From NCBI GenBank assembly GCA_026706345.1, contig JAPOYX010000198.1, forward strand, positions 125,575 to 179,705: a DNA stretch of 54,131 bases, given 5' to 3'. Position 1 is the first letter of the stretch. The number at the start of each line of letters is the position of its first letter. A program made the position numbers and the translations under genes. This DNA is from Gemmatimonadota bacterium (GTDB lineage: Bacteria; JAAXHH01). Shown in pieces: positions 12,868 through 31,654 of this stretch. The notes under the pieces are model-generated. The model ran no database searches, had not been told where the DNA came from, and was given only the letters and a program-made list of their open reading frames with translations.

Positions 12868-14300
12868 GCATCCTCCTGTTCCCGGTGCCTGAGTTCCACC
12901 ACGACGCCCGGCCGGTCCGCCAGGTGTTGGGCGAGCCGCTCGGCGAAGTAGACCGACCGGTGCTGGCCGCCGGTGCAGCCGAAGGCGACGGTCAAGTCGG
13001 TGAACCCGCGACGCACGTGATGTGCCACCGCCTGGTCGATCATCGTTTTGACGTCCCGAAACAGGGACTGCGTCTCGTCCAGGGCGTCCAGAAAAGCCGC
13101 GACGGGCGCGTCCATGCCCGTCATGTGCTCGTATTCCGGGTATCGGCCCGGGTTTTTCACGATGCGGCAGTCGAAAACGAAACCGCCGCCGTTGCCGCTC
13201 GGGTCCAGTGGCAGCCCCTTGTGATACGAAAAACTCCACAGGCGGACGGTCAGGCGGCCCCGGGATGATTCGCCCATGCGCCGCAATTCGGAAGAATCCA
13301 CAATATCGGACCAGGCCCGCTTCAACGCCGGCAATTCATCCGGCAGATCCGCCCTTTCCATCAGGCCTTCCAGGTTCCTTACGCCATGGGAGATGCTCGT
13401 CAGAAAGTGGGACTTGCCTTCGTAGAGCCCCCGGTAACCATAGGCGCCCAGTGCCTGCATGAGGCGGACCAGGGCGTACCCGTAGTAGTGGGCGAGGAAA
13501 GACTCGCGTTGAACCGGCACGTAAGCACGCACCGCCTCGATGTAGTGTTCCAGGAGTTTGTCCCGGGTCTCCCAGGGGATTTCGGCCTTGGCGTCCTGCA
13601 GCAGGGAGGCGACGTCGTACTGGAGCGCGCCCTGGCGTCCGCCCTGGTAGTCGATGTAGTGCGGCCGGCCGTCGTGCCACATGATGTTGCGGGACTGGAA
13701 GTCGCGGTACAGGAAATATCCGGTTTCCGTTTCCAGGAGGAACTTCGTGAACCGCTCGAAATCGTCTTCCAGGGCCTGTTCGTCGAAGTCGATGGGCACG
13801 AGTTTGAGGAAATGGTACTTGAAGTAGTTCAGGTCCCACCGGATCGACTGCGCGTCGAAACGGCGGCGCGGATAACAGACCGAATAGTCCAGGTCGCTGC
13901 CGGCGGCGACCTGGAAGCGGGGCAGGTCGTTGATCACGCGTCTGTACATCGCGACCATTTGATCCGAGAAGGCGCCCTCCTCCGCTCGCGTGGCGGCCAC
14001 ACGATCGTACAGCGTCTCGTCTCCCAGGTCCTGCTGGAGGTAGATCCCCTGGTCCAGGTCCTCGGCGTAGATCTCGGGAACCGGCAGGCCGTGGCGATGG
14101 AAGTGCCGGGAAAGAGAAAGGAAAGCGACGTTCTCCCGGCGGTCGGCGTTTGCCGCGCCGACGACGGTCGTTTCATCGTCCGCCAGACGAAAGTAACGCC
14201 GCCTGGAGCCGTCGCCGCCCAGCGCGGCCGTACCCGTCGGCTCATGCCCGAACGTGCGGCGGAAGAACCGTACCAACCTGTCCCGGGCATCTCGCATCAT
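12864..14300 (-). CDS. AmgK-like sugar kinase fused to RapZ C-terminal domain
   Basis: A 478-residue two-domain protein. Residues 1-330 are an aminoglycoside-phosphotransferase fold: YFLYRDFQSRN has catalytic D200 and N205, and IDYQGG has metal aspartate D217. This matches AmgK, the anomeric MurNAc/GlcNAc kinase. Residues 345-470 match the RapZ C-terminal domain, with LWSFSYHKGLP, FDCRIVKNP and GCTGGQHRSVY (441-451). In enterobacteria that domain senses glucosamine-6-phosphate and binds small RNAs. The kinase feeds the MurU-like enzyme encoded just after it with a four-base overlap. The fusion suggests amino-sugar recycling with built-in sensing, which is inference. Confidence 0.87.
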   Translation of the reverse strand: MMRDARDRLVRFFRRTFGHEPTGTAALGGDGSRRRYFRLADDETTVVGAANADRRENVAFLSLSRHFHRHGLPVPEIYAEDLDQGIYLQQDLGDETLYDRVAATRAEEGAFSDQMVAMYRRVINDLPRFQVAAGSDLDYSVCYPRRRFDAQSIRWDLNYFKYHFLKLVPIDFDEQALEDDFERFTKFLLETETGYFLYRDFQSRNIMWHDGRPHYIDYQGGRQGALQYDVASLLQDAKAEIPWETRDKLLEHYIEAVRAYVPVQRESFLAHYYGYALVRLMQALGAYGYRGLYEGKSHFLTSISHGVRNLEGLMERADLPDELPALKRAWSDIVDSSELRRMGESSRGRLTVRLWSFSYHKGLPLDPSGNGGGFVFDCRIVKNPGRYPEYEHMTGMDAPVAAFLDALDETQSLFRDVKTMIDQAVAHHVRRGFTDLTVAFGCTGGQHRSVYFAERLAQHLADRPGVVVELRHREQEDA

Positions 14301-14411
14301 GGTCGGCCATCCTTTATCCAGGCGAAGACAACCTGTGCTTCATTCGGACCGTTTCGCGACCTGTCGTGACACGGTCGGATCGCAAATGACCCGGCCGACA
14401 GACCGCCGATT

Positions 14412-15404
14412 TCATCCGGGCCGCTTCATGATCAGGAGCAAGGGTCTGTGATCGGTGGGATACATCCTGCGCGCGTCGTTGTTGTTGTCGAGGATGACAT
14501 AGACCCGGTCGTGGTCCATGGCGAGCCCTTCCGCCGTTTTCGCGCCGAACTGCTCGTGCTGATAGAGGTACTCCGGGTCGTTGACGATATGGGCGAAGGA
14601 CCAGATCGTGGACGGCGCGTCGATATCCAGGTACCGGATGGTCCTCCGTATCGTCGCCGTGCTCCGCTGCAGGATGTATACGTTTTCGACCTCCCGGTGC
14701 AGACCCGTGTAACTGTCCGCCGATCCATGATTCGCGATCTCCACGATCCTTTGCACCGGGGCCATGTCGACTTCGATCAGGCCGCAGGGCTGCCGTTCGG
14801 CGGTGACCAGGAACCGGTCCCGGGCCATCAGCGTGATCCCCTCGAGATAACCGCCGCGCGTCTGGAAGAGCCCCGCCGAAGCACCCACTTTGCGGAGGCT
14901 CGTGGTGACCCAGGAGGCCTTCTTCCCATCCGCGTCGACCTTCAGAATAGCGAAGGCGCCCTCGCTGGCGAGGTAGAAGCTTCCGTCGTCATCGCGGGTG
15001 ATACCCTCCAGGTCCAGCCTGAACACGCCGAAGGGTCTGGGTGCGTCGAACCGGACGTGGGGTACGAATACCACTGCATCCTCCCGTAGCTCGATTCGGA
15101 AGATGGTATCGTCGTGCTTGTCGGAAACGGTATACAGGGTATCGCTGTGGACGAAGAGTCCCGATGGTTGGTTGGATTCGGGACCTTCCACGGGGAGGAC
15201 GCTGATCGCTTCCAGTTTAATCGGTTCGTTCTGCGCCAGAGAAGCTTCAGGAATCCAAAACAGGGCCGAAACGCATAGGGCGAGCGGCGCAATGAGAAAG
15301 CGATGGGCGGGCAATGCGAGCGGCGCGAGAAGGAGACGAAGCACGAGCGGCAGGCGAAGCGCGGCCGGGCCCCGCATACCCCCGGAAAGATCCCTACTCC
15401 CCAT
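14412..15404 (-). CDS. Secreted phytase-like / SdiA-regulated beta-propeller protein
   Basis: A 330-residue exported protein. After a long basic leader there is a hydrophobic stretch (FLIAPLALCVSALFWIP) followed by ASLAQ, a plausible signal-peptidase site near residue 58. The mature part has a beta-propeller pattern (SGLFVHSDTLYTVSDK, LDLEGITRDDDGSFYLASE, KTAEGLAMDHDRVYVILDNN) like esterase-like-phytase/SdiA-regulated domains (PF13449). Substrate unknown. The start at 15404 overlaps the preceding lipoprotein gene by 11 bases; an ATG at 15377 would shorten the leader. The overlap suggests co-transcription with the peptide-binding gene. Confidence 0.7.
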   Translation of the reverse strand: MGSRDLSGGMRGPAALRLPLVLRLLLAPLALPAHRFLIAPLALCVSALFWIPEASLAQNEPIKLEAISVLPVEGPESNQPSGLFVHSDTLYTVSDKHDDTIFRIELREDAVVFVPHVRFDAPRPFGVFRLDLEGITRDDDGSFYLASEGAFAILKVDADGKKASWVTTSLRKVGASAGLFQTRGGYLEGITLMARDRFLVTAERQPCGLIEVDMAPVQRIVEIANHGSADSYTGLHREVENVYILQRSTATIRRTIRYLDIDAPSTIWSFAHIVNDPEYLYQHEQFGAKTAEGLAMDHDRVYVILDNNNDARRMYPTDHRPLLLIMKRPG

Positions 15405-17076
15405 TGTCCACCTCGGCGATGTAAAGCTTGTGCCAGCGGAAGGAACCCACCGTGCCGTCGTCGTTTACGGCATAACCCTTCAGCCAGGGTTTCCGAAGCT
15501 GCAGGCCCATCTTGTGATAGAGGAAAGCGGCGGGATAGTCCGCCACCTGGACGGCCGAGGCTTCACGGTACAGACTTTCCCGGATCTCCGGATTCAGTTC
15601 GGCCGCGGCCGACTCCACGAGGCGGTCGAAGCCGGGATTGTGCCAGTCCTGCCGTCCGTGACCCCGGGGCTGGGAGTGCCAGATCATGTCCAGCATGTTG
15701 CGCGGGTCGAGGAAATCGGCGCCGAAAGCGATCAGGCCGAGGTTCATGTTCCACTTGTACAGGTGGTCCATGTAGGTATGCAGATCGGCCGTCCGGATGT
15801 CCACGTCGATACCGAGATGCTCTTTCAGCATGCTCTGTATCGCCACGCCGATCAGGCGGTCGGAGGGGGTTGGCGCCCTGAGCCACAGTTCCTGCCGCGG
15901 GAAACCCTGTCCCCCCGGATATCCGGCCTCGCGCATCAGTTGCCGCGCCCGTTCGGGATCGAATCCCTGCACGGCGGCGTGGGTGTCGCCTTCGAATTCC
16001 TTGAATCCGGGCGGGATCATGGAATAGGCCGGGACGGCCCCGCCCCGCAGGATGATGTTGCACAGGTTGTCGCGGTCCATCACCCGCGTGAAGGCTTCCC
16101 GGACGCGAATGTCGTTGAAAGGCGGCAACTGCGTCCTGAAGAAGAGATACCAGGTGTTCAGCCCGTGAAACCGCACGAGATCCTTCTTCAGGCCGGGATC
16201 CCGTTCGATGCGGGCCAAGTCGTTCACATCGACGTTCTCCATGTCGACCTCGTCGCTTTCATAGGGAAGAATGGTCGCCGCGGCCGCGTTGCGGAAGGGG
16301 TGTATGACCTTCTCCAGGAAGGGCTTGTGGGGGCCGTTGTAATAGGGATTCGGAACAAGCGTCATGTGGCTGCCGTTGACCCACTCCGTGACCATGAAGC
16401 CGGAATTCGTGATGATGTTCTGCGGTTCGGTCCACTTGCGGCCGTATTTGTCCACGAGCCGCTTCGGCACCGGCATGGCGTCACCGAAGGAAACGATATG
16501 GGGCAGGTAGGGCGCCCGCTTTTCCGTCTCGATGACCAGGGTCGAATCGTCCACGGCCCGGATGCCGAGGGACGTGAGATCCTTGTTCTCCCCCTTGACG
16601 ATCGCTTCGGCGTTCTTGATGTCGTAATAGAAGAAGGCGTAGATGTTGGTGGATTCGGGATCGAGCATCCGGCGGTAGGAATACACGAAGTCGTGGGCTG
16701 TCAGCGGCGACCCGTCGCTCCAGCGCATCCCGGACCTGAGGTTGAAGGTCCAGATTATCCCGTCATCCGAGCCCCAGCTGTGCGCGGCGCCCGGGATTGG
16801 GTTCCAGTGCTCGTCCTTGAACAGCAGGGCCTCGAAGGGCAGGATCGTCTGCTCGGTGTCGTAGGGCTCGATACTGGGGTCCAGGCTCTTCGGCTCGGGA
16901 CTCATGGACCGCAGCACCTGGCGGGAGGCGTCCACGGCGTCGTCGGGCAGCGTCACGCCGATCGAGTTTACGCGGCCGCCTTCCGTGGGCACTTCAGCAT
17001 CCTGTTCCCCGCCGCGTTCGCCTTCGCCGCAGGAGATCAGCAAGAGGATCGATATCAGAAGAATATATAAGCGCAT
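15394..17076 (-). CDS. Oligopeptide ABC transporter substrate-binding lipoprotein (OppA/DppA family)
   Basis: A 560-residue SBP_bac_5 protein. The start at 17076 is set by a clean lipoprotein signal MRLYILLISILLLISC with the lipidated cysteine at 16; the longer frame adds 38 residues that spoil it. Family hallmarks include SWGSDDGIIWTFNLRSGMRW, the segment after LTAHDFVYSYRRMLDP, and VREAFTRVMDRDNL. It should present peptides or similar ligands to an Opp-type permease at the cell surface. No permease or ATPase gene is adjacent, so it is an orphan binding protein. It lies just to the left of the defence island. Confidence 0.88.
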   Translation of the reverse strand: MRLYILLISILLLISCGEGERGGEQDAEVPTEGGRVNSIGVTLPDDAVDASRQVLRSMSPEPKSLDPSIEPYDTEQTILPFEALLFKDEHWNPIPGAAHSWGSDDGIIWTFNLRSGMRWSDGSPLTAHDFVYSYRRMLDPESTNIYAFFYYDIKNAEAIVKGENKDLTSLGIRAVDDSTLVIETEKRAPYLPHIVSFGDAMPVPKRLVDKYGRKWTEPQNIITNSGFMVTEWVNGSHMTLVPNPYYNGPHKPFLEKVIHPFRNAAAATILPYESDEVDMENVDVNDLARIERDPGLKKDLVRFHGLNTWYLFFRTQLPPFNDIRVREAFTRVMDRDNLCNIILRGGAVPAYSMIPPGFKEFEGDTHAAVQGFDPERARQLMREAGYPGGQGFPRQELWLRAPTPSDRLIGVAIQSMLKEHLGIDVDIRTADLHTYMDHLYKWNMNLGLIAFGADFLDPRNMLDMIWHSQPRGHGRQDWHNPGFDRLVESAAAELNPEIRESLYREASAVQVADYPAAFLYHKMGLQLRKPWLKGYAVNDDGTVGSFRWHKLYIAEVDNGE

Positions 17077-17214
17077 GGTGGATGATGATTTGACGCTTCT
17101 GTCTGGTTCTAAATAACCGGGAATGAGGATTGCTAACTTCCCAATGCAAACCAAAGAACTATTCATAGGTTCCGAAGACTGTCTACACAACCGAATGAGT
17201 AAGTCTTGAACCTA

Positions 17215-18780
17215 TTAACCTTTCCTCGCCGTTCTTCTTAACCACTCGGACTCATCAACCGCTGGGCGACTCAGTTTGGTCGCAAAACTCTGTGCTATGC
17301 GTTGAGCGTATTCAGCCTTTAGCTCTCCACGCCACGTATATCGCTTGTCGCTGGTATCTAAAAACTCGAATCCGCGATCGGTCTGCCTCCTAGTCGCAGT
17401 TACCGGACTCGGATTATTGCACTCCGATGGGTTGAATTGCAGAACAACCCAACCGGATGAATCAAATTCAATCCCCATTCGCTTAAACTCCTGATCGAGT
17501 TTGATAACGAGCTGCTCCTTATCCTTCGTCGGTTCAACCAGCGGAAGAAACAGGAACGAAGTCTCCTCCTCCAGCCTTACACAGTCACATCGTGGTCTCA
17601 TGCAAATCAGGTGATGTTCATCTCCATCCACCTCCGCCGTAACGATAGACCCAAGCCACAACTTCGGTGGAGGAGCATTGAACACAGTCCGAAAGCTCAT
17701 TATCCAAGCCAACCGCTCGTCAAGATCAATGACATTTCCGCCAGCAAAGCCACCGGAAAGATCCCCAAATGCCTTCTCCTTCAACACGCTCGTATTCTGC
17801 AAACCTTTCGTTGCCAATTTAATCGTCTTTCCCAGATCGATTTCTTTATTACCGAACCGAAATTCTTCACCATTGCGACGAATCCAGTGCTCCACCGCTT
17901 CCGTGCCAGCAGGGGACTCCTCGGCAACAGTATTGTCCATTAGACCGCGAAGTTCCTCGGCAACATGGTTCACGATCTGGCGTTCTGCATCTTCAGGATC
18001 GGAAAGACAGGTCCTGTGTGCCAGAAAAGCCGGATCCAAATCCGCACTGAATCGATCCAACACCTTATGCTCACCCTCACGAACTGCAGTTAGTGATGTA
18101 AGTGCTATGGTTGGAAGTAGTCCCTCTGTCATTGCCGCGAAATCATCAATTAGTAGTTCTGGAAGTTTTTCCTCCGCGACGCACCGGTCTTTCAACTGTG
18201 TTGCCAGATTGACTGCAGATTTCGCGTAAATGACTATACGACCGTGTCGATATGAAATCACCATACTACTTTCGTCCTCACAAGGATCAAGTCTCGCTTC
18301 CCTTAGTCTTGCGACGATTTGAGCGCGAATGTCCTCCAACCGGGACTCACCCGTATAAATGGCCACGAGTCGAAGGGAGTTTCTTTGATCTGCTTCCCCT
18401 GTCAGCAATTTGCAAAGCAAGCTTAGTGCATATTGAGGATCGTCATCCTGTAGTCGCCAATCCAGAACTACGATATCTGCCTGTCTCATCGCACTCATCT
18501 TGGATTGCGTAGGGCCAACAACACCGCAGATCACACCTAGCTTTGAAAACGAATCCATTATAGACGCAGCGTTCAGCGAGTGATCCCGACTTCTGGTTAC
18601 CAGGATTGGATCTTCCTGACTATCGACCGTAATACCCCGACCCGGATCCTCTACCTCGGCCTCGGGTCCAATGTCTTCGTCCGAGTCCATGTATGCCTTG
18701 TCATCCACTACTACAGCTGTACGAAGAAAACGCTGGACGAACCTGCGGCTACGACAACCGAGTTCTTCCTCAGATCCCAT
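17215..18780 (-). CDS. Receiver-domain protein with long unassigned C-terminus, partner of the GHKL ATPase
   Basis: A 521-residue protein. The N-terminal about 200 residues fit an enlarged response-regulator receiver: acidic pair D26-D27 (AVVVDDKAY), phospho-acceptor D107 at the end of a strand (ADIVVLDWRL), T143 (LVAIYTG) and K187 (RIVIYAKS). An insertion of about 40 residues follows the acidic pair. Residues 210-521 match nothing I recognise and have no membrane segment. It is the last gene of the island, nine bases after a protein with a histidine-kinase-like C-terminus. That spacing suggests a kinase-receiver pair. No DNA-binding output domain is evident, so the C-terminus may be a defence effector or a regulator of one. 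Confidence 0.62.
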   Translation of the reverse strand: MGSEEELGCRSRRFVQRFLRTAVVVDDKAYMDSDEDIGPEAEVEDPGRGITVDSQEDPILVTRSRDHSLNAASIMDSFSKLGVICGVVGPTQSKMSAMRQADIVVLDWRLQDDDPQYALSLLCKLLTGEADQRNSLRLVAIYTGESRLEDIRAQIVARLREARLDPCEDESSMVISYRHGRIVIYAKSAVNLATQLKDRCVAEEKLPELLIDDFAAMTEGLLPTIALTSLTAVREGEHKVLDRFSADLDPAFLAHRTCLSDPEDAERQIVNHVAEELRGLMDNTVAEESPAGTEAVEHWIRRNGEEFRFGNKEIDLGKTIKLATKGLQNTSVLKEKAFGDLSGGFAGGNVIDLDERLAWIMSFRTVFNAPPPKLWLGSIVTAEVDGDEHHLICMRPRCDCVRLEEETSFLFLPLVEPTKDKEQLVIKLDQEFKRMGIEFDSSGWVVLQFNPSECNNPSPVTATRRQTDRGFEFLDTSDKRYTWRGELKAEYAQRIAQSFATKLSRPAVDESEWLRRTARKG

Positions 18781-18789
18781 CCTTTTCTC

Positions 18790-21744
18790 CTATTCTTTCT
18801 CCACCGGCACGATTCCAAAAGTCGCGCCTTCGTCTCCTTCTATCAATTGTAGATCGAACCCTACTCGGCGCAATGTTTCACGGCCGATGTGTAGCCCCAT
18901 ACCACGACCACCTGGCTTTCTGCTGAAACCGTATTCGAAGATTGCCTCCCGGTCACGTACATTGACTCCAGGTCCGTTATCCGCGACGATCAGTGATCCG
19001 TCGCGTTCGTCGAGTTCGATGCGTCGTTCTTGTTGGGGATTCTGCTGTGATAACCAGAAGATCGCGTTGTCAACCAAGTTCACAAACACGGGGTAGAAAC
19101 TCGACGGAAAACCAACAACCCTAGCGTTCGCGAAAGTCTTCGTCGCTACTAACGTTACATTATGACGCCCCATACGGGCTCGGAACAACTCCTCTAGAAA
19201 GTCTCGCACCTCAGAACCACGGATTTCCACTTCCTTACGGTAGAGACGCCGCTGCAACGGCGTGAACAGTGTCAAGTAGCCGTCAAGATGGTCGAAACTT
19301 GCTCGGATGCTCTCATACAACTTCGCCAACCCTTCATTTGCATCCGCCCAAGCTCTCAGCTTTCTAAGTCCATGCCGCACTGACCTTATGGTACCGGCAA
19401 ACTCGTGGTTTATTATCTCGATAGCCATTCCCAACTGCGCCAACTGAGCATCGGCTTCCGCCTCCTCCTCCAATAAAAGATTGCGTTGTTCGATGGCCAT
19501 CAACTGGTCGGCTACCGTACTCTCTCCCGTGACATCTATGGACTGTAGTTGCTCCAGTATCGAGCGTAACAATTCGCTTTGCTCTTCTGCGGTTTTTTGG
19601 ATTCTTTTCTCCAGTTCATCTCTGGTTTCGACAAAAACCTCATCGGGCATATCCGCTACGTCGACCCGTTGAAATTCACTCAGTACTGCCCGTAATTCCA
19701 TTTCAACAGCCTTGAGTGACTGCCCGGCCGCACCCCTTGCAGCCGAGGCGACGTTCTCTGCTTCCGTCCTCACTGCGCGACTTGATTCACCAGTAGCCTT
19801 GCGGGCTTCTTTCCCTAGGATCTCTAAAGCTTCTTCCGTTCTTTCACGGCGATCGAGTGCCAATTCCGCCTTCCTGGCTTCATCACCTATTAGATCCTCG
19901 ATCAACTCTCGTGTTGGTCGAAACACATACTCTTGAAGTGAGGCGAACTCCGAGTTGTACACGTTCCAATCGCGAAGGATAGCTTTGCTCAAACCTATAC
20001 GGGGACGTGATACTCGATACTTTGACTCCAACTCCCTGATATCCGCGTGCACTCGACGTTCGAGATTGAGAACCTCGCGAGCCGCCAGGTGACTATCCGC
20101 GATGTTGCATGCGGACCTCAATTCCTCCTCCACACCGACCGTCAATGCCTCCACTTCCTTTTGAGGCACATTGTTCGCAATTTTGTCAAAAAACTCGTCG
20201 AGACTCTTCTGAAATACCTTCTTTCTCGCTAAAACCTGTCTTTCGCGTCGCTTCCTCGCTTCGTCCTGTTTTTGAAGTTCATCTTTTCTCGTATCGAACG
20301 TTTCGGAATGCAGACCTTCGGATCTGAAAAAATCCGCTGCGACCTGTAGAAAAAAGTTCTGAAGTATTGACCGAAACTGACGATAAGCTTTGTTTTCCTG
20401 GAATCCTTCTCGTCCCGCTTTTTCCCTTAGGTCACTATTCCTGTCAGCGTCGATCTCCACCGCGCCGAACATCTTTCGATGTGAAAAGTAATAGTAATAA
20501 GCGCTCTTTGTTCGTCTGAACTCGATGTCCAACCAATCATAATCGGTATCACCGTATGGCAGGACTCGAATTCCATTTCGGTAAATATACAATCCACCCA
20601 ATTCTTCAGTTTTCTTCGCCAAAACGGCGTGTTCCTCATTTGGGATTGTCGAATATCTGCTTTCCCCCTCGAATGCCGCAAAGTCGATCGAGAATTGGCC
20701 GCAGTTCGTACGTGCTCCTCGCCCACCGCTCCAAGGTATGACGTGATCTGCCGTCGTCTCGCCGTAGATCGAGATTTCTCCGATAAATTGCCCGAACTCG
20801 TCAAACGTTCCTCGGATGCGATGATCTGCATTCTGAAACTCCTCCGGGGTGAAGAACTCGTCCTCACCAATCAAATCATCGGCCACCTCGTCCGTCTTGT
20901 GATCGCGAAACGCAGTGTGTATCACACTGTGAGATTCAGGCGTCATGGTATTGCTGAATCCGAGCAACGCCTTTTTCAAAGGTGTCGCTTTCTTCAATGC
21001 GGCGGCCTTGGTCGTTGTCGGATCGCCGTCTATATCCTCCGCCAGTAATGTCGAGGTCGGTTTGATGATGAAATGCGTGCCAGACTTGTCACTTCGGAGG
21101 GACGGATCCCCGAGATAGGAGTCGATATCTTGTGGATCGACCTTGAATTGATCCAACTCGTCAACTAGCTTTTCCATCAGTGGACTCTCGACACGGAGAC
21201 CAACCTTTTCAGCATTTTCACGGAACTCTACAACCATCTCGTCCACGTCATTCGCCGATGGCAGTGTGCCCGGAGAGAATGACCGAAGCGGGATTTCGAT
21301 TTCGTCCAAGTCGATTCCGGGCCACTCGAATATGCCCCAATTCAGAAATGCCGCGGTGAGATCGGAAGCTTCGTCGTCAGTCTTCGGTCGAGTGAGCACC
21401 AGAAGTTGTGGCCCTATAGTCGCAATGGCAAGCCTCCCGATCCCCTTTTCACCGAGCATAGGACGAGGCTTCTTGTTGGGGTCACCTGGTGGGATTCCGG
21501 TGGGGTTGAGCTTGTACTCTGTGCCTATGGTTAACCATCTGGACACGAAGTCGTCGTAACTCATCCCAACCCCGTCGTCCCTCAAGACAAATAGGCCGTC
21601 CGAACGATAATAATCAATCTCGACACGATCGGCATATGCATCATGGGCGTTCTTAAACAACTCGCTGATTGCCGTTGGCATACCAGCAATCTGCTGTCTA
21701 CCGAGCATGTCGAGTGTTCGAGCACGTGTCTTGAATTTCGGCAT
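18790..21744 (-). CDS. Dual GHKL ATPase: MORC/MutL/Hsp90-like N-terminus, coiled coil, histidine-kinase-like C-terminus
   Basis: A 984-residue protein with two complete sets of GHKL motifs. N-terminal set: N-box with E28, N32 and D35 (SELFKNAHDAYADR), G1 DDGVG (56-60) and G2 GEKGIGRLA (98-106), closest in style to MutL/MORC/Hsp90. Residues of about 440-770 are largely charged helices. The C-terminal set begins with an H-box-like NHEF (H780), then N-box NLVDNA (889-894), G1 DNGPG (922-926) and G2 GGRGMGLHIG (945-954). The start overlaps the methyltransferase stop by one base (TGATG), and the receiver gene follows after nine bases. GHKL ATPases of the MutL/MORC type linked to restriction-modification genes are known; a second kinase-type domain in the same chain is unusual. 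Confidence 0.82.
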   Translation of the reverse strand: MPKFKTRARTLDMLGRQQIAGMPTAISELFKNAHDAYADRVEIDYYRSDGLFVLRDDGVGMSYDDFVSRWLTIGTEYKLNPTGIPPGDPNKKPRPMLGEKGIGRLAIATIGPQLLVLTRPKTDDEASDLTAAFLNWGIFEWPGIDLDEIEIPLRSFSPGTLPSANDVDEMVVEFRENAEKVGLRVESPLMEKLVDELDQFKVDPQDIDSYLGDPSLRSDKSGTHFIIKPTSTLLAEDIDGDPTTTKAAALKKATPLKKALLGFSNTMTPESHSVIHTAFRDHKTDEVADDLIGEDEFFTPEEFQNADHRIRGTFDEFGQFIGEISIYGETTADHVIPWSGGRGARTNCGQFSIDFAAFEGESRYSTIPNEEHAVLAKKTEELGGLYIYRNGIRVLPYGDTDYDWLDIEFRRTKSAYYYYFSHRKMFGAVEIDADRNSDLREKAGREGFQENKAYRQFRSILQNFFLQVAADFFRSEGLHSETFDTRKDELQKQDEARKRRERQVLARKKVFQKSLDEFFDKIANNVPQKEVEALTVGVEEELRSACNIADSHLAAREVLNLERRVHADIRELESKYRVSRPRIGLSKAILRDWNVYNSEFASLQEYVFRPTRELIEDLIGDEARKAELALDRRERTEEALEILGKEARKATGESSRAVRTEAENVASAARGAAGQSLKAVEMELRAVLSEFQRVDVADMPDEVFVETRDELEKRIQKTAEEQSELLRSILEQLQSIDVTGESTVADQLMAIEQRNLLLEEEAEADAQLAQLGMAIEIINHEFAGTIRSVRHGLRKLRAWADANEGLAKLYESIRASFDHLDGYLTLFTPLQRRLYRKEVEIRGSEVRDFLEELFRARMGRHNVTLVATKTFANARVVGFPSSFYPVFVNLVDNAIFWLSQQNPQQERRIELDERDGSLIVADNGPGVNVRDREAIFEYGFSRKPGGRGMGLHIGRETLRRVGFDLQLIEGDEGATFGIVPVEKE

Positions 21745-22805
21745 CAGGACAGCCTTCCTACATCCTTGAGATGCTCTATGAAATGTTTACCAATCAGCTT
21801 GGCCAAGTGGACCGGTACCGCATTTCCAATTTGCCTCGCCATCGACGCCATGCTTCCGTTGAACATGAAATCTTCTGGAAAAGTTTGCAGGCAAGCCGCT
21901 TCTCGTATACTGATCGCCCTATCCTGCTCAGGATGGCCAAAGCGACCATTAGAATAGCTGATACACCGAGTGGTCAGTCCTGATGCTGGAGAGTCCCAGG
22001 CCATTCGTCCATACACGTCGGAATATCCGGTAAAACCCTTGTGACATTCGAGCTTTAGGTACTCAGGCCAGTCTCGTTCGCCTCCACCTTCGGGTGTCGC
22101 TTTAATACGGTCGAGGTTTCGTTCCGAAAGTTTTGCCGCTTTGTGATTAAGCACCCCATTGTGTTCTTCGCCTGCGTGAATCGCCGGAAGATGTGATATC
22201 CAGTCCCGAACTGTGGTGTATCTAACGTTGGAGGTTCCTGGTCCATGTGTCTCGTCGGGTATACGAATAACCCCGTGCAGACTCGCTATGAGCAAAAGTC
22301 GTCGTCGGGTTTGCGGTATCCCGTACTTGGAAAGTCTAATGGGGCGACAATCAATTTCATATTCTGCCGCATCTAGCCGCTTTAAAAAGTCGCCAAAAGG
22401 CTGACTCTCGCTGTCCAACTTCTGCAATCCTGGAACATTCTCCACAAACACAAGATCCGGCTTACAACCTTCCACAAACCGGGCAAAGTGGGCCAACAGT
22501 GGAACACGTTCATCCTCGTCCAAACTCGGCCTCTTCGTCTTTTGTTTGCTAAAAGGCTGACACGGTGCACATCCGCTGAACAGCACCGGGCTCGGTCGTT
22601 CCGAATCTACTCGTTGGCGGACCAACTCAACGCTAACATCGCGGATATCTTCAGGCTCGAAGTGAACATCGGGAAAGTTGGCTTTGAAGCTCTTCCGAGC
22701 ATTCGCGTCGTGATCTAGCGCGAACGAAATCCCCATGCCTGCGGCACGAAAGCCACAACTGGCTCCACCACAACCCGCGAAGAAATCATAAACCTGAACA
22801 GTCAT
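21744..22805 (-). CDS. DNA (cytosine-5-)-methyltransferase
   Basis: A 353-residue C5 methyltransferase with the standard motif order. Motif I is FFAGCGGASCGF (8-19), motif IV is PCQPFS with catalytic C82, motif VI is ENV (122-124), motif VIII is QTRRR (165-169), motif IX is in REAACLQTFP and motif X is in GNAVP. The target-recognition region between VIII and IX is short, so the recognition sequence cannot be predicted. The ATG at 22805 is preferred over a GTG 21 bases upstream because GAGGTGG precedes it. It follows the Vsr-type nuclease and is translationally coupled to the dual-GHKL gene. Confidence 0.94.
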   Translation of the reverse strand: MTVQVYDFFAGCGGASCGFRAAGMGISFALDHDANARKSFKANFPDVHFEPEDIRDVSVELVRQRVDSERPSPVLFSGCAPCQPFSKQKTKRPSLDEDERVPLLAHFARFVEGCKPDLVFVENVPGLQKLDSESQPFGDFLKRLDAAEYEIDCRPIRLSKYGIPQTRRRLLLIASLHGVIRIPDETHGPGTSNVRYTTVRDWISHLPAIHAGEEHNGVLNHKAAKLSERNLDRIKATPEGGGERDWPEYLKLECHKGFTGYSDVYGRMAWDSPASGLTTRCISYSNGRFGHPEQDRAISIREAACLQTFPEDFMFNGSMASMARQIGNAVPVHLAKLIGKHFIEHLKDVGRLS

Positions 22806-22977
22806 CAGGCCACCTCGGAAGGTCACTATTACTTTCCGATGCCATGTGCCGAAACACAGGCTTCACACTGGACCGCTTTCATACCCCCGCTTCGGTATAG
22901 TGAGGAACCGTAGCGATACTACTATTGTTTCAGTCGAATTTAGGACGTATGAACTCGACAAGCAAGGAACTCGCCAC

Positions 22978-23403
22978 TCAATGATGCTCTACATTGCACT
23001 TTGTGAGTTCCGCTAACCTGTGCTCCACTTCCTCTTCGTCCTTAGTCTCGCATTGCCAAATTACAAGAACTCGCCATCCGAGATTCCGTAAGGCCCCTTT
23101 CTGATTTGCATCGCGAACCACGTTGGCTGTGAATTTCTCGGTCCAGAAGTCGGTCCGGGATTTCGGGGTGGACGCGTAACGGCATCCTTCGTGCCGATGC
23201 CAAAAGCATCCATGCACGAACACGGCCAGCCGATGTTTCGGAAGCACCAGATCGGGACGTCCAGGAAGATCCTTGCGGTGCAGGCGGAAACGCAGGCCCA
23301 TCCGATGAGCGATTCGACGGACGACCAGTTCGGGACCGGTGTCACGAGTACGAATCGCTGCCATCAATTCGCTACGCCGTTTGCGATCCATGATGTCGGT
23401 CAT
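22978..23403 (-). CDS. vsr: Vsr-type very-short-patch-repair endonuclease
   Basis: A 141-residue protein covering the Vsr family end to end. It has RTRDTGPELVVRR, the metal-binding aspartate in GRPDLVLPKHR, the zinc-site segment HGCFWHRHEGC, and WRVLVIWQCE. Vsr cuts 5' of T:G mismatches produced by deamination of 5-methylcytosine and is usually linked to a cytosine-5 methyltransferase, here 172 bases downstream. Since no other nuclease partners that methyltransferase, this protein could instead serve as the restriction nuclease. The start at 23403 is chosen from family alignment; another ATG lies 12 bases further in. Confidence 0.93.
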   Translation of the reverse strand: MTDIMDRKRRSELMAAIRTRDTGPELVVRRIAHRMGLRFRLHRKDLPGRPDLVLPKHRLAVFVHGCFWHRHEGCRYASTPKSRTDFWTEKFTANVVRDANQKGALRNLGWRVLVIWQCETKDEEEVEHRLAELTKCNVEHH

Positions 23404-23607
23404 GGGTGATCTCTCATAAGATGGGACAAGAGAACGGCGCTGAACGCCGAGGAAGCTTGAAAACAAGTCTTTTGCGTGCTGCGACTGTATGGTTCAGTAA
23501 AACGAATCATATATACCGCGATTGCAGGCCATTCGCTTGGGTGATCTGTTGCACTTCATGTGCAAGCCGTTCAGGCGTAGCGACCGAGGCGGATGCCTCC
23601 AGAAAGC

Positions 23608-24420
23608 TCATGCTTCAGACTCATTAGCCGAGAGATCGCGGAAACGACGGCGCAGGTCCGCTATAGCGTTACGCATCAGTCTCTGATCCTCGTCGGACAT
23701 GTGGAGAAACGCCCACTGGTCGTCAGCGATCTGATCGATGACGTCCAACATATCCAGAATGATCTCTTGGATTAATTGAATCTCGATACTCCAACCTTTA
23801 GGGCTGAAGTGTGTAAAGTCGTTGCGTAGGGCGTGCAGTCTTTTAAATGAATGCTTTTGTGCGTTTGTAATTTCGATGATTCGAACGCAACCAGATTCAG
23901 TGCGTGCCGATTCAGATCCGAGTCTCTCAAACAGTTTAGGGGCGCTTGCGACCTGGATGCTTGGCGGATAGTCCCGTGGATTACGAGGCCGACTGAAAGG
24001 CAGACTGAACTCATCGACATCATCGATGTAATCGATTTCCCCACGTCTGTCGCGCTCGTGCCATTCGATCCATTTGCTTGCACAGTCCCGGGACAGGGCT
24101 CCTAAGTTGGCCGTTCCAGATAGAAGACACACCATAGCCCCTTGAAGCGCACTGTGTAGAGATAGAATTACCCATTTCCAGGCGCCGGATGACCGCTCGG
24201 TTTCGGCGAGACACAGGAGGCAGTGCTGGAGGGATGCCAATACATCCTGCCTTTCATCTGTGCGTACATATTCACTCATACTGTATAGACGTCCGATCGG
24301 ATTTAGGCCGTTATTCTCCAATTGATCCTTCGGTATACGGCGGGAATTCATCTCAGCCAAGCGGGTCTCAGCCATTCTTGCCAGAATGACATCGATCTTT
24401 TCATTCCTTGGCGTATACAA
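23608..24420 (-). CDS. Uncharacterised island protein with HEPN-like RNDFTH motif
   Basis: A 270-residue, mainly helical protein that I do not recognise as a named family. Near the C-terminus, LHALRNDFTHFSPKGW contains R199-N-D-F-T-H204, which fits the R-x4-6-H signature of HEPN domains. HEPN proteins are common RNase effectors in toxin-antitoxin, abortive-infection and restriction loci. A hydrophobic helix near residues 83-101 (WVILSLHSALQGAMVCLL) would fit the core of such a fold. The start is uncertain: a TTG at 24420 or an ATG at 24375, neither with a strong ribosome-binding site. It lies 38 bases after hsdS and 204 bases before vsr, so it may belong to either module. Confidence 0.55.
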   Translation of the reverse strand: MYTPRNEKIDVILARMAETRLAEMNSRRIPKDQLENNGLNPIGRLYSMSEYVRTDERQDVLASLQHCLLCLAETERSSGAWKWVILSLHSALQGAMVCLLSGTANLGALSRDCASKWIEWHERDRRGEIDYIDDVDEFSLPFSRPRNPRDYPPSIQVASAPKLFERLGSESARTESGCVRIIEITNAQKHSFKRLHALRNDFTHFSPKGWSIEIQLIQEIILDMLDVIDQIADDQWAFLHMSDEDQRLMRNAIADLRRRFRDLSANESEA

Positions 24421-24458
24421 ACTGCATAAGGTCTGCGCGTTCGAGTTTCATAACAGCC

Positions 24459-25619
24459 CTACAACAACCGAGATACAAGAGCCTCACCTAACGTCGACGC
24501 AGCCATTGAACTTGTGTATGTCATTTCTGCGGCGGCTTGGGCGGCATTCACCATCTCTGCAAAATGAAGCTGTTGATCGAACGGGGGGACTAATACCGAA
24601 ATAGACTTGATACGGTGCAAGGCCAGCTTTCCTATCGTTACCCGTCCAGTCCGTATCAGGATTTGATCCTGTACGGATTCTGAGTTCAGCTGAGCACTCA
24701 AGAAAACGTTGTGTAGCGTGTTGCTCACAAGAGGTGTAAGGTAGGCTGCGTTCTCGGTAAGATTTGCGCCGGCTAAATGGCTTTCTGCTGGTGCAGTTAT
24801 GCCGATTTTCCCAGCGATTGTAATGAGCGTATCGGTGGAGTGAATAATGTAACGAGAGATGCCGGTTTGTAGGTCTTTGCTGATATACCTTGGGTCGTCT
24901 GCGATAACTTTACCTGCTGTAATGTCCGCAGCTCTGATGTATCGGTGCGGAGTCTTTCTGTCGGAATAACGACTTCCCTTCGGCAATCGCTTTCCACCGC
25001 GTATCCGAACTAGATCCTCAAGCCGCCGTTTATCCCAGCCCATAGGGTTTTCGGAGGGGTCGCCGAACATCTTGACGAAGAGGGCTGGTATAAACTCGCG
25101 CAGTCGTTCCTGCGTGCGCTTTCTTAGCCGCTCAATCTTTGCCGCCCGATTTAAAATGCCAACGATCCTCCGCTGATGGTCAAGCGGTGGCTGAGGCACG
25201 GGTAATGACATCAGTGCCCTCATGTCGGTCCGAGGCATCCGCGACCCTGTCACCGATGACATGACAAAGTTGACTGTTTCTTTTCGTCGCAACAGATAGG
25301 CAACAAACTCACGGTCAACTCCATCTCGCGGGAGGAGTGGAACCAACTCGGTCGAACACCTGCCTGCAAAACCTGGAGTAGCGACCTTGTTGAGATATGG
25401 CCGAAGCTTCGCATAGAGGATGTGACGCTCGTCGAAGCGATACGAAGTGCTTCTTTGGCTTCCGATACGTGAATCGTTTTTAAAGTTGAAATCACCGCTT
25501 TCGGATTCGACATGTTCGACGCCCACATATGGGAGGGCAAAAACTGTCGGATTGTCAGGTTGAAGTCCTTGGCGATCCATCTCGCAAAGTTGGCCGAGTG
25601 GGACTATCGGCGTGCTCAT
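24459..25619 (-). CDS. hsdS: Type I restriction-modification specificity subunit HsdS
   Basis: A 386-residue S subunit with two target-recognition domains and helical spacers. TRD1 is about residues 1-150. The first conserved helix carries LDHQRRIVGILNRAAKIERLRKR (written here only as a landmark near 148-170), and TRD2 begins at WDKRRLEDLVRIRGGKRLP. PQPPLDHQR and PPFDQQLHFAEMV mark the two repeat junctions. It should direct the HsdM/HsdR complex to a bipartite site that cannot be predicted. The start overlaps the hsdM stop by four bases (ATGA). It is somewhat shorter than enteric S subunits but looks complete. Confidence 0.93.
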   Translation of the reverse strand: MSTPIVPLGQLCEMDRQGLQPDNPTVFALPYVGVEHVESESGDFNFKNDSRIGSQRSTSYRFDERHILYAKLRPYLNKVATPGFAGRCSTELVPLLPRDGVDREFVAYLLRRKETVNFVMSSVTGSRMPRTDMRALMSLPVPQPPLDHQRRIVGILNRAAKIERLRKRTQERLREFIPALFVKMFGDPSENPMGWDKRRLEDLVRIRGGKRLPKGSRYSDRKTPHRYIRAADITAGKVIADDPRYISKDLQTGISRYIIHSTDTLITIAGKIGITAPAESHLAGANLTENAAYLTPLVSNTLHNVFLSAQLNSESVQDQILIRTGRVTIGKLALHRIKSISVLVPPFDQQLHFAEMVNAAQAAAEMTYTSSMAASTLGEALVSRLL

Positions 25620-27247
25620 TTTGTCACCGCCTTCCTCACGTCCTCGGTCAGCGAGTCTATTTCCCCAAGAATCTCCGTCTCGATGTCCCGAAGTTCATCT
25701 AGAATCTCCAACGGGTCGCGGTGCTCGACCAATGCGCGGTTACGAGGGCGGTGGCGGTTGGCGCTCAGATTGAAGTCGGCGGCTCGGATGGCGTCAGTTT
25801 CCGCAAACCACCATTTCTCCGTCCAGTCTGCCTCATAGTCCCGGTCTCGCCACGTGCGCCAGCACGCTTTCTGGTCATTGAACGCTTTAGTCAGACCAGG
25901 AAGGTCGTCATCGTCGATAGGCTGGTCGTGGTTCGCGTCGAGTTTAAAACCGTCGTTGTCGGCGTGTAGAAACATCACTCGTTCAGTCGCTCCTCCCTTG
26001 CGTAACACAAGCAACGAAGTCTTCACACCCGAATACGGACTGAACACGCCGCCGGGCAGTGACAGCACGGCTTCGACGGCGTTGTTCTCGATCATTCGGC
26101 GCCGCAGTTCTCTGTGCGCGTTTGTGGCACCAAACAACACGCCTTCGGGCACTACCACACCGCAGCGTCCACCATCTTTCAGGTGATAGAGCATGTATTG
26201 TAGGAATAGCAGTTCGGTCTGTGCCGTGCGACCCACCCTCACGTCCTCGACGATGCGGTCGCGGTCGAGTCGACCGGAAAACGGTGGATTCGCGAGGATG
26301 ACATCAAAGCCGTGTGACGGAAGACCGAGTTCGATCTTCTCGGTGCGGTCGAGTGATCTCGTTAGTGCGTCGCGCCTCAAGATTCGCACCCGATCCAGAC
26401 CACGGAGCGTCAGGTTCATCGTGGCTAGACGCACCATCTGCGGGTCCACATCGGCTCCGTAAAACGTCGCCTCCTGCAACTGGTGAACAGCGTCGCGGCT
26501 TAGCATATCTCCAAGACCGCGCCGAACTGTCTTTCCATCAAGATCCACTTCCTCAATGCCGTCCGGGGAGGAATTAGCAAGCCGGATATGATCCCAGGCA
26601 CCGACCAAGAACCCCGCCGTGCCTGCTGCCGGATCGTAGACGGTCTCGCCGATGCGTGGATCGACCAATCGTATTAAGGCTCGGATGACATGGCGCGGCG
26701 TGCGGAACTGGCCGAGTTCGCCAGCCTGGCGGATCTGACGTAATACGTGCTCGAATAGATCGCCCTTGGTGTCCGCGTCTACACGATCGAGCCGGAGGTC
26801 GTTCAACTGACTTACTACCTGGGTCAGTACCGTCGGCTCGTCAATTATCAGTCGGGCACCGTCCATGAAGTCGGTGACTCCGTTCGCAGCAAGTTCCGCA
26901 TGGAATGGAAAGACTTCCTCACGCACCCAATTCACCAACCGGTCGCCGTTTAGTACGTTCGCCCAAGACGACCATCGCAACGACTCACGCGGCACCGTGG
27001 ACACTCCTGGCTCACGGCCGTTGCGCGGATCACGCAGGTTCCACTTTCCCTCGTAGCTGCTTGTGTAAGGTTCGGCTCCTGGTCGTTGCGCCGTGCGCAC
27101 CCGCACTTCGTCTGCAGTCTCATACATGTAGAAGTAGATCAGAAAGCTGAGTTGCTCAGCATTCTGGGCCGGATTCGGATAGCCACCGCCAAATAGATAG
27201 TCGCGTATGCGATCTATACCGAGCCGGAGTTCTGGGGTCATGGGCAT
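25616..27247 (-). CDS. hsdM: Type I restriction-modification DNA methyltransferase HsdM
   Basis: A 543-residue N6-adenine methyltransferase. The N-terminal helical domain (HsdM_N) is followed by the SAM-binding motif VYDPAAGTAGFLVGA and the catalytic NPPF. GVVVPEGVLFG and VEAVLSLPGGVFSPYSGV are typical of type I M subunits. It methylates adenine at the site chosen by HsdS and forms the core of the M2S complex. It starts four bases after hsdR and overlaps hsdS by four bases, a classic hsdRMS transcript. A second ATG six bases in could be the start. Confidence 0.95.
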   Translation of the reverse strand: MPMTPELRLGIDRIRDYLFGGGYPNPAQNAEQLSFLIYFYMYETADEVRVRTAQRPGAEPYTSSYEGKWNLRDPRNGREPGVSTVPRESLRWSSWANVLNGDRLVNWVREEVFPFHAELAANGVTDFMDGARLIIDEPTVLTQVVSQLNDLRLDRVDADTKGDLFEHVLRQIRQAGELGQFRTPRHVIRALIRLVDPRIGETVYDPAAGTAGFLVGAWDHIRLANSSPDGIEEVDLDGKTVRRGLGDMLSRDAVHQLQEATFYGADVDPQMVRLATMNLTLRGLDRVRILRRDALTRSLDRTEKIELGLPSHGFDVILANPPFSGRLDRDRIVEDVRVGRTAQTELLFLQYMLYHLKDGGRCGVVVPEGVLFGATNAHRELRRRMIENNAVEAVLSLPGGVFSPYSGVKTSLLVLRKGGATERVMFLHADNDGFKLDANHDQPIDDDDLPGLTKAFNDQKACWRTWRDRDYEADWTEKWWFAETDAIRAADFNLSANRHRPRNRALVEHRDPLEILDELRDIETEILGEIDSLTEDVRKAVTK

Positions 27248-27251
27248 ACTT

Positions 27252-29393
27252 TCAGCAATTCCCAGCGAGAAAGCCCTTGGACTTAGCGTCAGGCCGATCT
27301 CGCTTCAACACCGCAGCATTGAAGCCCGTGATAAGGCGCTCAAGCGACTTTTCGCCTCCGAATACACGTCGCGCTTGTTCGTACCCGCCGAGAGCGGAAA
27401 ACGGATGTTCGTCTAGATCCCAGCCTCCAAAGGCGTCCATTGTCATGGCATCGGCCTTCGCCCGACTGCCGATGAGGCTCGCCCAGCGGGCTTGTTCTGC
27501 ATTAAATTCCTCATGCCTTCCCCTCCACAACTCAAACCGCACGCCGATCTCTGCGGCACGCGCCTCGTGAGCCGGCGTCCGAATGATCTGGCCTGTCTCA
27601 TCCAAAGTCAGCCACTCCCGGCTTTCCGGGTCGATGTGGTCGTCCACGTCAAGGGTGAGGAGTACGCGGTGGTCGCCGCTACGGCTTGAAGTTCGAGATT
27701 CACCCGCATACCCGCCCTCGTTGCTCGCGTCCTCGTCGTGGATATCGGTGACCCCTACGAAATCAAAAATTGTAAAGTCTGACTTCCCGATGTGCGGTGC
27801 CTTGCGTGTGCCTCGCCCCCGCATCTGTCGGTAGAGGATGGTGCTGCGCGTAAACCGCGCCATAACCAGATTCACGACTTCCAGACAATCGAATCCCGTA
27901 TCCAACATATTGACACTGACGAGTATTTTCGGGAATTCCTCCTCCTTGAAGCGTTTGATAATGGAACTCGTGTCGGGCGCCGGACCGCCGCCTATGTCAC
28001 TAACTACAAAGTCGGCGTAGCGCGTGGTTGGGTGGGGTTTCATGTCTGCAAAACACTCGTCGAACATCTCCGCCAGTGTCTCGGCGTGGCGGCGAGTAAC
28101 GGCGAACACGATGGTCTTACCCCAAGCAGGTCGGCGTCGTATGCCGTCGTGGCCAACAAAACCCTTTTCAAGCACGTCGCGAAACTCTCGCACCATGGCG
28201 CGATTACGTTCAGGAATGGTAAACTTTCGTTCCAGCACACGCGGATCAACAACGATCTCATCCGCAGTCGCGAAAAGCTCTTCGAACTCCGATCTTGTCT
28301 GCTCGTCCATCGCGCTCCAGTCGATCTCGTCGCGGCGTACATCAAACCCGTCCTCCGCCGCGGTCTTCACCGTCATCGCACGATAGACACGATAGGGCAC
28401 GAGATGGTTCTCCCGAATAGCTCGTTGCAATGTGTAGCGGTAGGTAGGTTTGGAAACCTCGAAGAAACGTAGCGTGTCGCGTACGAACAGTCCGTCCTCG
28501 AGGTCGGGAAACGCTTCTGCGTCTGCCGTGCAAGGCGTAGCCGTTAAGCCGAGTTGGATGCCGTCGAAATGCCGCAATACACCGCTCCACCTGCCGTAGA
28601 TTGAACGGTGGCATTCGTCGGTGATGACGAGATCGAAGTATCCCGGTGAAAGGGTCCTGTATTCTGCAATGATGGTCTGCAAGGTCCCGATAGTGATTAG
28701 TTTCGCACGATCGAAACCCCGACCCGGTCGCAGCACGTGGCAGGGATATTCCCGCAAATGATCGGTGAAGACGTCCTCGGCCTGCCGGGCCAGTGCGATA
28801 CGGTCGACCAGGAACAGGACGCGCGTAGCAATACCCGCCTCGAAAAGCCGCTTGATGAAGGCCGCCGCCGTGCGGGTCTTGCCGGTTCCTGTCGCCATCT
28901 CCACCAACAGTTTGCGACGGCCCCGCGAGAATTCTTCCGACAGCGCTCCAATACACTCGATCTGGTATTCGCGGTCTACGATTTTCCGGTCGATTTCCAC
29001 CGTCGCCAGATCAAGGCGAATCCCGCGAGCGGCGATCCTTCGCTCAAGGTCGTCCTGAGCGAAAAACCCCGAGATCCTGCGGGCGTGGGCGTCCGTGTCC
29101 CGATCTAGGAAACGCACTTCCTCGCCGTTCGACAGAAACACGTACGGCACGCCTAGTTGTTCTGCGTAGTGACGCCCCTGATCCTGTGCCGCTACTGGAT
29201 CTACACGTGCCCTTTTGGCTTCCAACGCCGCCATAGGCCGACCCCGCCGATCGCAAAGCACGTAGTCTGCCTGCGAACCGTCTGGCAACGTGTATTCGAA
29301 CAGGACACTTGAACCATCGGTCAGGTTCCAGCCCGCATCGTTAAGCAGGGCGTCGATCTTGACGCGTGCGAAGGCTTCGGTCGTGCCACTCAT
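27252..29393 (-). CDS. hsdR: Type I restriction endonuclease subunit HsdR (EcoEI-like)
   Basis: A 713-residue restriction and translocation subunit. The N-terminal nuclease has the (E/D)xK element EAKRA near residue 58 with QADYVLCD upstream. The superfamily 2 motor has Walker A ATGTGKT (around 167-173), box II DECH, motif III LTATP and motif VI QMRGRGTR. The chain is shorter than EcoKI-type subunits and of EcoEI-like size. It is the first gene of the island transcript; the 160 bases upstream separate it from htpG. No frameshift or missing motif was seen, so the system looks active. Confidence 0.95.
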   Translation of the reverse strand: MSGTTEAFARVKIDALLNDAGWNLTDGSSVLFEYTLPDGSQADYVLCDRRGRPMAALEAKRARVDPVAAQDQGRHYAEQLGVPYVFLSNGEEVRFLDRDTDAHARRISGFFAQDDLERRIAARGIRLDLATVEIDRKIVDREYQIECIGALSEEFSRGRRKLLVEMATGTGKTRTAAAFIKRLFEAGIATRVLFLVDRIALARQAEDVFTDHLREYPCHVLRPGRGFDRAKLITIGTLQTIIAEYRTLSPGYFDLVITDECHRSIYGRWSGVLRHFDGIQLGLTATPCTADAEAFPDLEDGLFVRDTLRFFEVSKPTYRYTLQRAIRENHLVPYRVYRAMTVKTAAEDGFDVRRDEIDWSAMDEQTRSEFEELFATADEIVVDPRVLERKFTIPERNRAMVREFRDVLEKGFVGHDGIRRRPAWGKTIVFAVTRRHAETLAEMFDECFADMKPHPTTRYADFVVSDIGGGPAPDTSSIIKRFKEEEFPKILVSVNMLDTGFDCLEVVNLVMARFTRSTILYRQMRGRGTRKAPHIGKSDFTIFDFVGVTDIHDEDASNEGGYAGESRTSSRSGDHRVLLTLDVDDHIDPESREWLTLDETGQIIRTPAHEARAAEIGVRFELWRGRHEEFNAEQARWASLIGSRAKADAMTMDAFGGWDLDEHPFSALGGYEQARRVFGGEKSLERLITGFNAAVLKRDRPDAKSKGFLAGNC

Positions 29394-29556
29394 GGCACTT
29401 TCCAGGCCTTGACCGTTTTAACAATGGCACTGGAGTACTTGTAAGTATAAAGTTTCAAAACCGCTGGACCGCGGTAACTCCTTTCTTCAGAACCAAATCG
29501 AAGGCAATGATCGCCTCTAACCAACGGCCATAACCATGAGGCGATCTGACAAAGCC

Positions 29557-31485: not shown

Positions 31486-31654
31486 CGTCTGGCCTTTCCT
31501 CCTGGGCAGGGGAGCGGGCTGCTCCCGGTGTGACATGCTGTCCCGGGCCGTGATTTGCGCCCGGATACAGTGCGTTTGGTATGTCTATCCCATGTGAAAC
31601 TTGTTGCCTTTTGCCGGTCTGTCGCTCGCTCGCGCCGGGCCGGACAGCATGCGT
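31486..31654 (-). promoter_or_regulatory. Structured htpG leader
   Basis: The predicted transcript has about 160 untranslated bases. Arms at 31642-31651 and 31534-31543 are a perfect 10-base inverted repeat (CATGCTGTCC / GGACAGCATG), extendable by a GGCC:GGCC pair with a bulge. A second hairpin, GGGAGC-AGCCC-GCTCCC, at 31510-31526 lies six bases before the AGGAGG site. It could modulate translation, possibly with temperature. No ROSE or CIRCE element is present. Confidence 0.35.

Follow-up and report, generated by a model that had tools for sequence, protein, structure and literature searches.

Two-component-like systems that pair a HEF_HK kinase with a Response_reg_2 receiver (PF19191/PF19192) were previously described by Bellieny-Rabelo et al. 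2021 (PMC8011034). In that study, the succession HATPase_c_3, HEF_HK and HATPase_c is the main form of the kinase, found in 174 of 222 HEF_HK proteins, linkage of the kinase with a Response_reg_2 receiver is seen in 91.6% of regions, and HEF_HK neighbourhoods are enriched in restriction-modification genes, with C5 methyltransferases and Vsr among the linked genes. Iyer et al. 2008 (PMC2292703) describe MORC and paraMORC GHKL-S5 proteins encoded in restriction-modification operons together with Vsr and cytosine methylases. Neither of these papers, in the portions available, reports a functional test of a kinase of the double-GHKL kind, and a literature search for an experiment on any HEF_HK protein, or for an anti-phage role of HEF_HK/Response_reg_2, returned only the 2021 paper plus unrelated work. 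For VcSduA, in which a GHKL protein of the paraMORC3 type is joined to a nuclease, phage defence has been shown experimentally (PMC12137116).

Here we analyzed a locus in a 54,131-nucleotide stretch of DNA from a Gemmatimonadota bacterium (the window), in which an earlier note, made from the sequence alone, had claimed two full GHKL ATPase domains in one protein. The features of the locus, in window positions, are as follows.

17060..29554, no strand assigned: ~12.5-kb island that five sister genomes lack (sister-genome comparison)
about 17060-23433, no strand assigned: Vsr-Dcm-kinase-receiver part of the island, present alone in genome G009
17215..18780, minus strand: partner receiver P0002, 521 aa, 9 bp downstream of the kinase gene (Response_reg_2, 1.5e-35, residues 18-190)
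17320..17673, minus strand: C-terminal beta-barrel of P0002, about residues 370-487, with the motif C393-x2-P396-x-C398-D399-x2-R402 (model, conservation)
18790..21744, minus strand: double-GHKL histidine kinase P0001, 984 aa, ATG start (open reading frame, Pfam, model, PDB fold search)
18814..19098, minus strand: C-terminal kinase ATP-binding domain of P0001, HATPase_c, residues 883-977 (Pfam 9.5e-15; HK853-type fold)
19237..19437, minus strand: HEF_HK dimerisation/phosphoacceptor helix pair, residues 770-836, with H780-E781 (Pfam PF19191, 3.9e-29)
19438..20325, minus strand: charged helical connector, residues 474-769 (helical in the model; 38% D/E/K/R)
20326..21324, minus strand: middle, S5-like transducer region, residues 141-473, with R445 in AGREGF (alpha/beta in the model, fold matches)
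21361..21675, minus strand: N-terminal GHKL domain of MORC/Hsp90 type, HATPase_c_3, residues 24-128 (Pfam 7.4e-15, motifs)
21744..22826, minus strand: C5 cytosine DNA methyltransferase, its final base doubling as the first of the kinase gene (Pfam DNA_methylase, 8.4e-51)
22978..23466, minus strand: Vsr mismatch endonuclease (TIGR00632, 7.4e-42)
23608-24420, minus strand: 270-aa protein between HsdS and Vsr (no match in Pfam, PADLOC or NCBIfam)
24459-29393, minus strand: HsdR, HsdM and HsdS, which together make up a complete type I restriction system within the island (Pfam)
29557-31536, minus strand: htpG, a true Hsp90, bordering the island (Pfam 8.2e-128)

Pfam, profile searches and the structural model agreed that 18790-21744 encodes two full GHKL domains in one protein. 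HATPase_c_3 scored 55.6 bits (cut-off 25) and HATPase_c 55.4 bits (cut-off 26.4), far above chance, and every motif listed in the earlier note was recovered at its position: E28/N32/D35, DDGVG (56-60) and GEKGIG (98-103) in the N-terminal domain, and NHEF (779-782), NLVDNA (889-894), DNGPG (922-926) and GGRGMGLHIG (945-954) in the C-terminal part. It is near certain that both GHKL sites of P0001 are intact. The helix pair carrying NHEF, which had been described as dimerisation-like, proved to be a HisKA-type DHp pair that matches HEF_HK over residues 770-836 with 3.9e-29 (101.4 bits against a curated cut-off of 24.1). The charged helix of about 330 residues proposed to separate the two domains held for residues from about 474 to 769 (296 aa, 38% D/E/K/R) but not for residues 141-473, which are mixed alpha/beta of the S5/transducer type.

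Fold evidence was obtained for each half of P0001. In a phmmer search of the PDB, the C-terminal part matched sensor kinases and residues 19-67 matched MutL, weakly, while with a profile of 25 relatives residues 40-127 matched HtpG and endoplasmin/Hsp90 (best 1.2e-4) and residues 753-980 matched histidine kinases (best 4.8e-14). The top PDB fold matches of an AlphaFold2 model (mean pLDDT 79, pTM 0.55, its N-terminal strap, DHp helix and portions of the connector being of low confidence) included the SMCHD1 ATPase module (4.3e-9), the kinase of the HK853-RR468 complex (4.5e-9), GRP94/Hsp90 and the MORC3 ATPase-CW structure. The long matches to the SMCHD1, MORC3 and Hsp90 ATPase modules spanned residues 141-473, those to SMCHD1 and MORC3 running over more than 500 columns, and P0001 shows the arrangement that characterizes MORC/paraMORC proteins, in which an S5/transducer domain comes after GHKL motifs I-III, the S5 part being assigned at the fold level. 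Because the profile and fold matches hold for each half separately, both motif sets represent true GHKL folds, of different classes, and the proposed combination of a clamp with a kinase stands as a MORC/Hsp90-type clamp joined to a HisKA-type kinase.

We aligned 33 kinase proteins, divergent plasmid copies and paralogous copies included. Residues E28, N32, D35, D56, G58, G60, G98, G101, G103 and R445 of the N-terminal and middle regions, and H780, N889, N893, G924, G948 and G950 of the C-terminal part, were invariant in all 33, position 781 was E or D, and E99 varied within the divergent group. R445 lies within an (S/G)REGF motif, which we take to resemble the NxSRE motif of the Hsp90 catalytic loop. 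The residue set for His-Asp signalling is complete, comprising the phosphoacceptor His and the N, G1 and G2 boxes of the kinase and the acidic pair, Asp, Thr and Lys of the receiver, and phosphotransfer from H780 to D107 of P0002 is likely.

P0001 meets the description of group 1 of the HEF_HK family (PF19191), with HEF_HK, both ATPase domains and an adjoining Response_reg_2 gene. It shows no essential difference from this group, sharing its three domains and their order, the adjacent receiver, a C5 methyltransferase and Vsr nearby, and comes from a sparsely sampled lineage. Since the three-domain form and the linked genes described in PMC8011034 match P0001, it is an ordinary member of a published family, and its architecture is not new: the idea that the fusion is a novel pairing was not borne out, as this is the commonest form of the family (174/222) and the receiver partner is already known. 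P0001 shares an N-terminal GHKL domain, an S5-like module and linkage to a cytosine methylase and Vsr with the MORC/paraMORC GHKL-S5 ATPases (PMC2292703), but carries a DHp and HATPase_c kinase where those have nuclease or other C-terminal parts. The DHp-CA fold of its C-terminal half is shared with HisKA-type sensor kinases such as Thermotoga HK853; however, P0001 is soluble, and a MORC/Hsp90-type clamp replaces the membrane or PAS sensor. What is new here is the delimitation of the cassette from presence and absence among congeneric genomes, the occurrence of divergent pairs beside other modification genes, and the unclassified C-x2-P-x-C-D barrel of the receiver.

The receiver P0002 matched Response_reg_2 with 123.4 bits (cut-off 27), and D26/D27, D107, T143 and K187 are conserved in receivers of its type. 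Its model (pLDDT 80, pTM 0.75) consists of a receiver domain (residues 1-190), a helical middle part (194-362) and a barrel (about 370-487). Across 26 receiver sequences, D107, W108, K187, C393, C398 and R402 were invariant and P396 and D399 nearly so. The most divergent receiver partners gave direct matches to the canonical Response_reg model that lie below its cut-off (2.3e-5 for Campylobacter and 2.6e-6 for Enterobacter plasmids), and this supports a genuine receiver fold. P0002 showed no recognisable DNA-binding output domain, and its profile had no significant match among PDB sequences. A receiver profile found no relatives in viral contigs, though receiver homologues were seen beside the kinase in those contigs. 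The best PDB fold match of the barrel was MazF (Foldseek E 0.0094, probability 1.00, TM-score by target 0.63-0.66), short of an E value of 0.001. Homology to MazF/PemK was considered and rejected, and the match is kept as a lead, as hhalign against 19 PemK proteins from the same phylum gave a probability of 0.3% and there was no match to Pfam PF02452. The barrel with its C-x2-P-x-C-D motif, unclassified as it is, is the likely output domain.

The window carries an island of about 12.5 kb, because five sister genomes (L086, L087, L088, L089 and L091) are homologous up to position ~17060 and then, via a short intergenic stretch, directly from 29554 onward. The island is flanked by an extracellular solute-binding protein gene (SBP_bac_5) on one side and htpG on the other. 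HtpG, itself a clamp chaperone, happens to lie close to the clamp-kinase cassette. Genome G009 is homologous to positions 12123-23433 and then from 29513 onward; Vsr, Dcm, kinase and receiver are present there, but HsdS, HsdM, HsdR and the 270-aa gene are not, so the cassette and the type I system are separable. Vsr-Dcm-kinase-receiver is therefore a discrete inserted cassette, present or absent at one site between congeneric genomes. HEF_HK scored above the cut-off in 2 of the 16 genomes searched.

Clustering of neighbouring open reading frames around 36 related loci, drawn from genomes as well as viral contigs and plasmids, found the kinase in all 36, a C5 methyltransferase in at least 33, a receiver of the P0002 type in at least 28 and Vsr in at least 13, these counts being lower bounds as some loci end at contig edges. 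Additional loci carry divergent receivers, and any other gene was present in at most 7 of the 36. Methyltransferase, kinase and receiver are mostly adjacent on one strand, an arrangement that recurs in many phyla and also in contigs with a viral classification, with the methyltransferase following the receiver in two loci; intergenic gap values of about -4000 among the related loci are artefacts of start-codon choice. The pairwise distances of the three proteins correlated (Spearman 0.63-0.72, reached by 0 of 500 permutations), which shows co-inheritance of the trio, a pattern that could also arise from host phylogeny. Vsr mends the T:G mismatches that arise from deaminated 5-methylcytosine, and for this reason its presence fits a methyltransferase product of that kind. 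Hypervariability of the target recognition domain (TRD), which would be expected under specificity diversification as in many restriction systems, was not seen among close relatives: mean pairwise identity was about 0.67-0.82 in the TRD and 0.67-0.78 around the catalytic motifs. As the TRD is about as conserved as the catalytic region, the target of the methyltransferase may be stable within the group. The kinase-receiver pair fitted no defence-system model in PADLOC-DB 2.0.0, where the GHKL part gave only weak REase_II matches and the receiver none.

Divergent pairs of the same kind were found by sequence comparison at two further loci.

L034 (G000:C169:16000-32000), 9163-6659, minus strand: second double-GHKL kinase of the same genome, 834 aa
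L034, 6777-4867, minus strand: receiver-like partner of this kinase, 636 aa
L036 (G008:C9:2254000-2270000), 9317-6945 and 6948-5047, minus strand: double-GHKL/receiver pair of a sister genome

The L034 pair adjoins an N6/N4 methyltransferase and lies near an MmeI-type enzyme. The L036 pair adjoins PbeA-like and PbeC-like (SMC/DndD-related) genes, which suggests a connection to phosphorothioate-type systems. The HEF_HK model of Pfam misses the L034 kinase and places the L036 kinase just below its cut-off, and the Response_reg_2 model detects neither receiver. Plasmids bear shorter double-GHKL proteins annotated as sensor histidine kinases, together with receivers, beside methyltransferases, and a match to the kinase was present in at least 43 Campylobacter plasmid records. 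On the Campylobacter jejuni plasmid CP132133.1 (L050, 5986-9202), for instance, a shorter double-GHKL kinase precedes a receiver of the canonical type that has the same P-x-C-D barrel motif, and a dcm gene faces the pair. Common to all receivers of the divergent pairs is a motif centred on (P-x-)C-D that follows a strand and in most cases has a G-x-(I/V) strand ahead of it. As these pairs are missed or barely detected by the Pfam models, the published HEF_HK family looks like a single branch of a larger class, a reading drawn from comparing the pairs found here rather than from a systematic survey. Elsewhere in the same genome (L002/L035, G000:C23, about 116-118 kb), a C5 methyltransferase is followed by a BbrUII/HgiDII-related GHKL protein whose C-terminus is PD-(D/E)xK-like by eye, a nuclease-output counterpart of the kinase-output cassette.

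Altogether, the best explanation is that P0001 is a soluble HEF_HK-family histidine kinase with a MORC/Hsp90-type GHKL-S5 input clamp. We put at roughly 0.55 the probability that the kinase-receiver pair and the C5 methyltransferase form a mobile, methylation-linked two-component cassette, most likely for defence, working as a clamp-input phosphorelay with a barrel output. Within this explanation we infer the phosphotransfer, the clamp as input, a DNA signal, defence and the barrel as output. The clamp would close with ATP upon DNA that is foreign or wrongly modified, and the helical connector would relay this closure to the DHp helices; the C-terminal domain would then phosphorylate H780, D107 of the receiver would take over the phosphate, and the C-terminal barrel of that protein would deliver the response. 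That the clamp is the input module of the kinase is plausible and fits the anatomy of the protein and the conserved kinase-receiver pair. A defence role is likewise plausible, because of the association with modification genes, the mobility of the cassette and the demonstrated defence by the GHKL-nuclease relative VcSduA (PMC12137116), in which, as in P0001, a GHKL clamp is the proposed controller of an output domain; the output of VcSduA, a Shedu protein with a GHKL domain, is a fused PD-(D/E)xK nuclease, whereas that of P0001 would be a phosphorelay.

A different role for the pair, as a regulator that tunes expression or activity of the adjoining methyltransferase and restriction genes to cell state (e.g. 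NTP level) with no effector of its own, is possible but the less probable choice. Control of restriction-modification, with NTP sensing by the N-terminal domain, was proposed by the 2021 authors (PMC8011034), and a complete type I system does lie within the same island. However, G009 has the cassette but lacks the type I genes, and the trio of Pantoea and Pseudoalteromonas lies amid unrelated genes with no restriction enzyme annotated alongside (the plasmid gene table being incomplete); the receiver's lack of a recognised DNA-binding output domain also speaks against a regulator. We consider it unlikely that the locus is instead an unusual restriction system in which the kinase or receiver itself cuts DNA or RNA, the activity annotated for HgiDII/BbrUII-type GHKL restriction proteins, with the kinase half serving only for dimerisation or gating. 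BbrUII/HgiDII is indeed the best NCBIfam match of the N-terminal domain (3e-18, residues 9-128), an adjacent C5 methyltransferase is common to both, the same genome pairs a methyltransferase with a GHKL protein of that type that ends nuclease-like by eye, and the barrel weakly resembles MazF; yet P0001 scored 65.7 bits against an equivalog cut-off of 550 for the BbrUII/HgiDII restriction enzyme model NF050001, over residues 9-128 only, and the copy elsewhere in the genome is without the kinase part. Moreover, no nuclease was found in P0001 by Pfam or among the top 50 PDB fold matches of its model, the core histidine kinase residues kept in 33 of 33 relatives would be needless for mere dimerisation, and the PemK comparison of the barrel was negative.

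The suggestion that the tandem is a gene-fusion oddity or an annotation artefact of one genome is refuted: the majority of over 20 related loci, which come from several phyla and include viral contigs and plasmids, have open frames of the same length with both domain sets, and 174 of the 222 proteins counted in PMC8011034 share the form. Returning to the phosphorelay cassette, a more specific version of it is a long shot. Here the clamp would read DNA modification, and the phosphorylated receiver would free its SH3/MazF-like barrel, a new kind of effector acting by growth arrest or RNA cleavage, which would amount to a methylation-gated phosphorelay immunity. If this were true, the double-GHKL/receiver pairs missed by current models would represent a broad, largely unrecognised class of defence systems.

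If the clamp truly drives the kinase, the locus would be a rare case in which a DNA-handling ATPase machine is wired directly to phosphorelay signalling, and this would explain how a small cassette of methyltransferase, kinase and receiver could work with no restriction enzyme apart from it. With a small defined cassette, natural relatives that are free of it and a candidate output domain, functional testing is straightforward.
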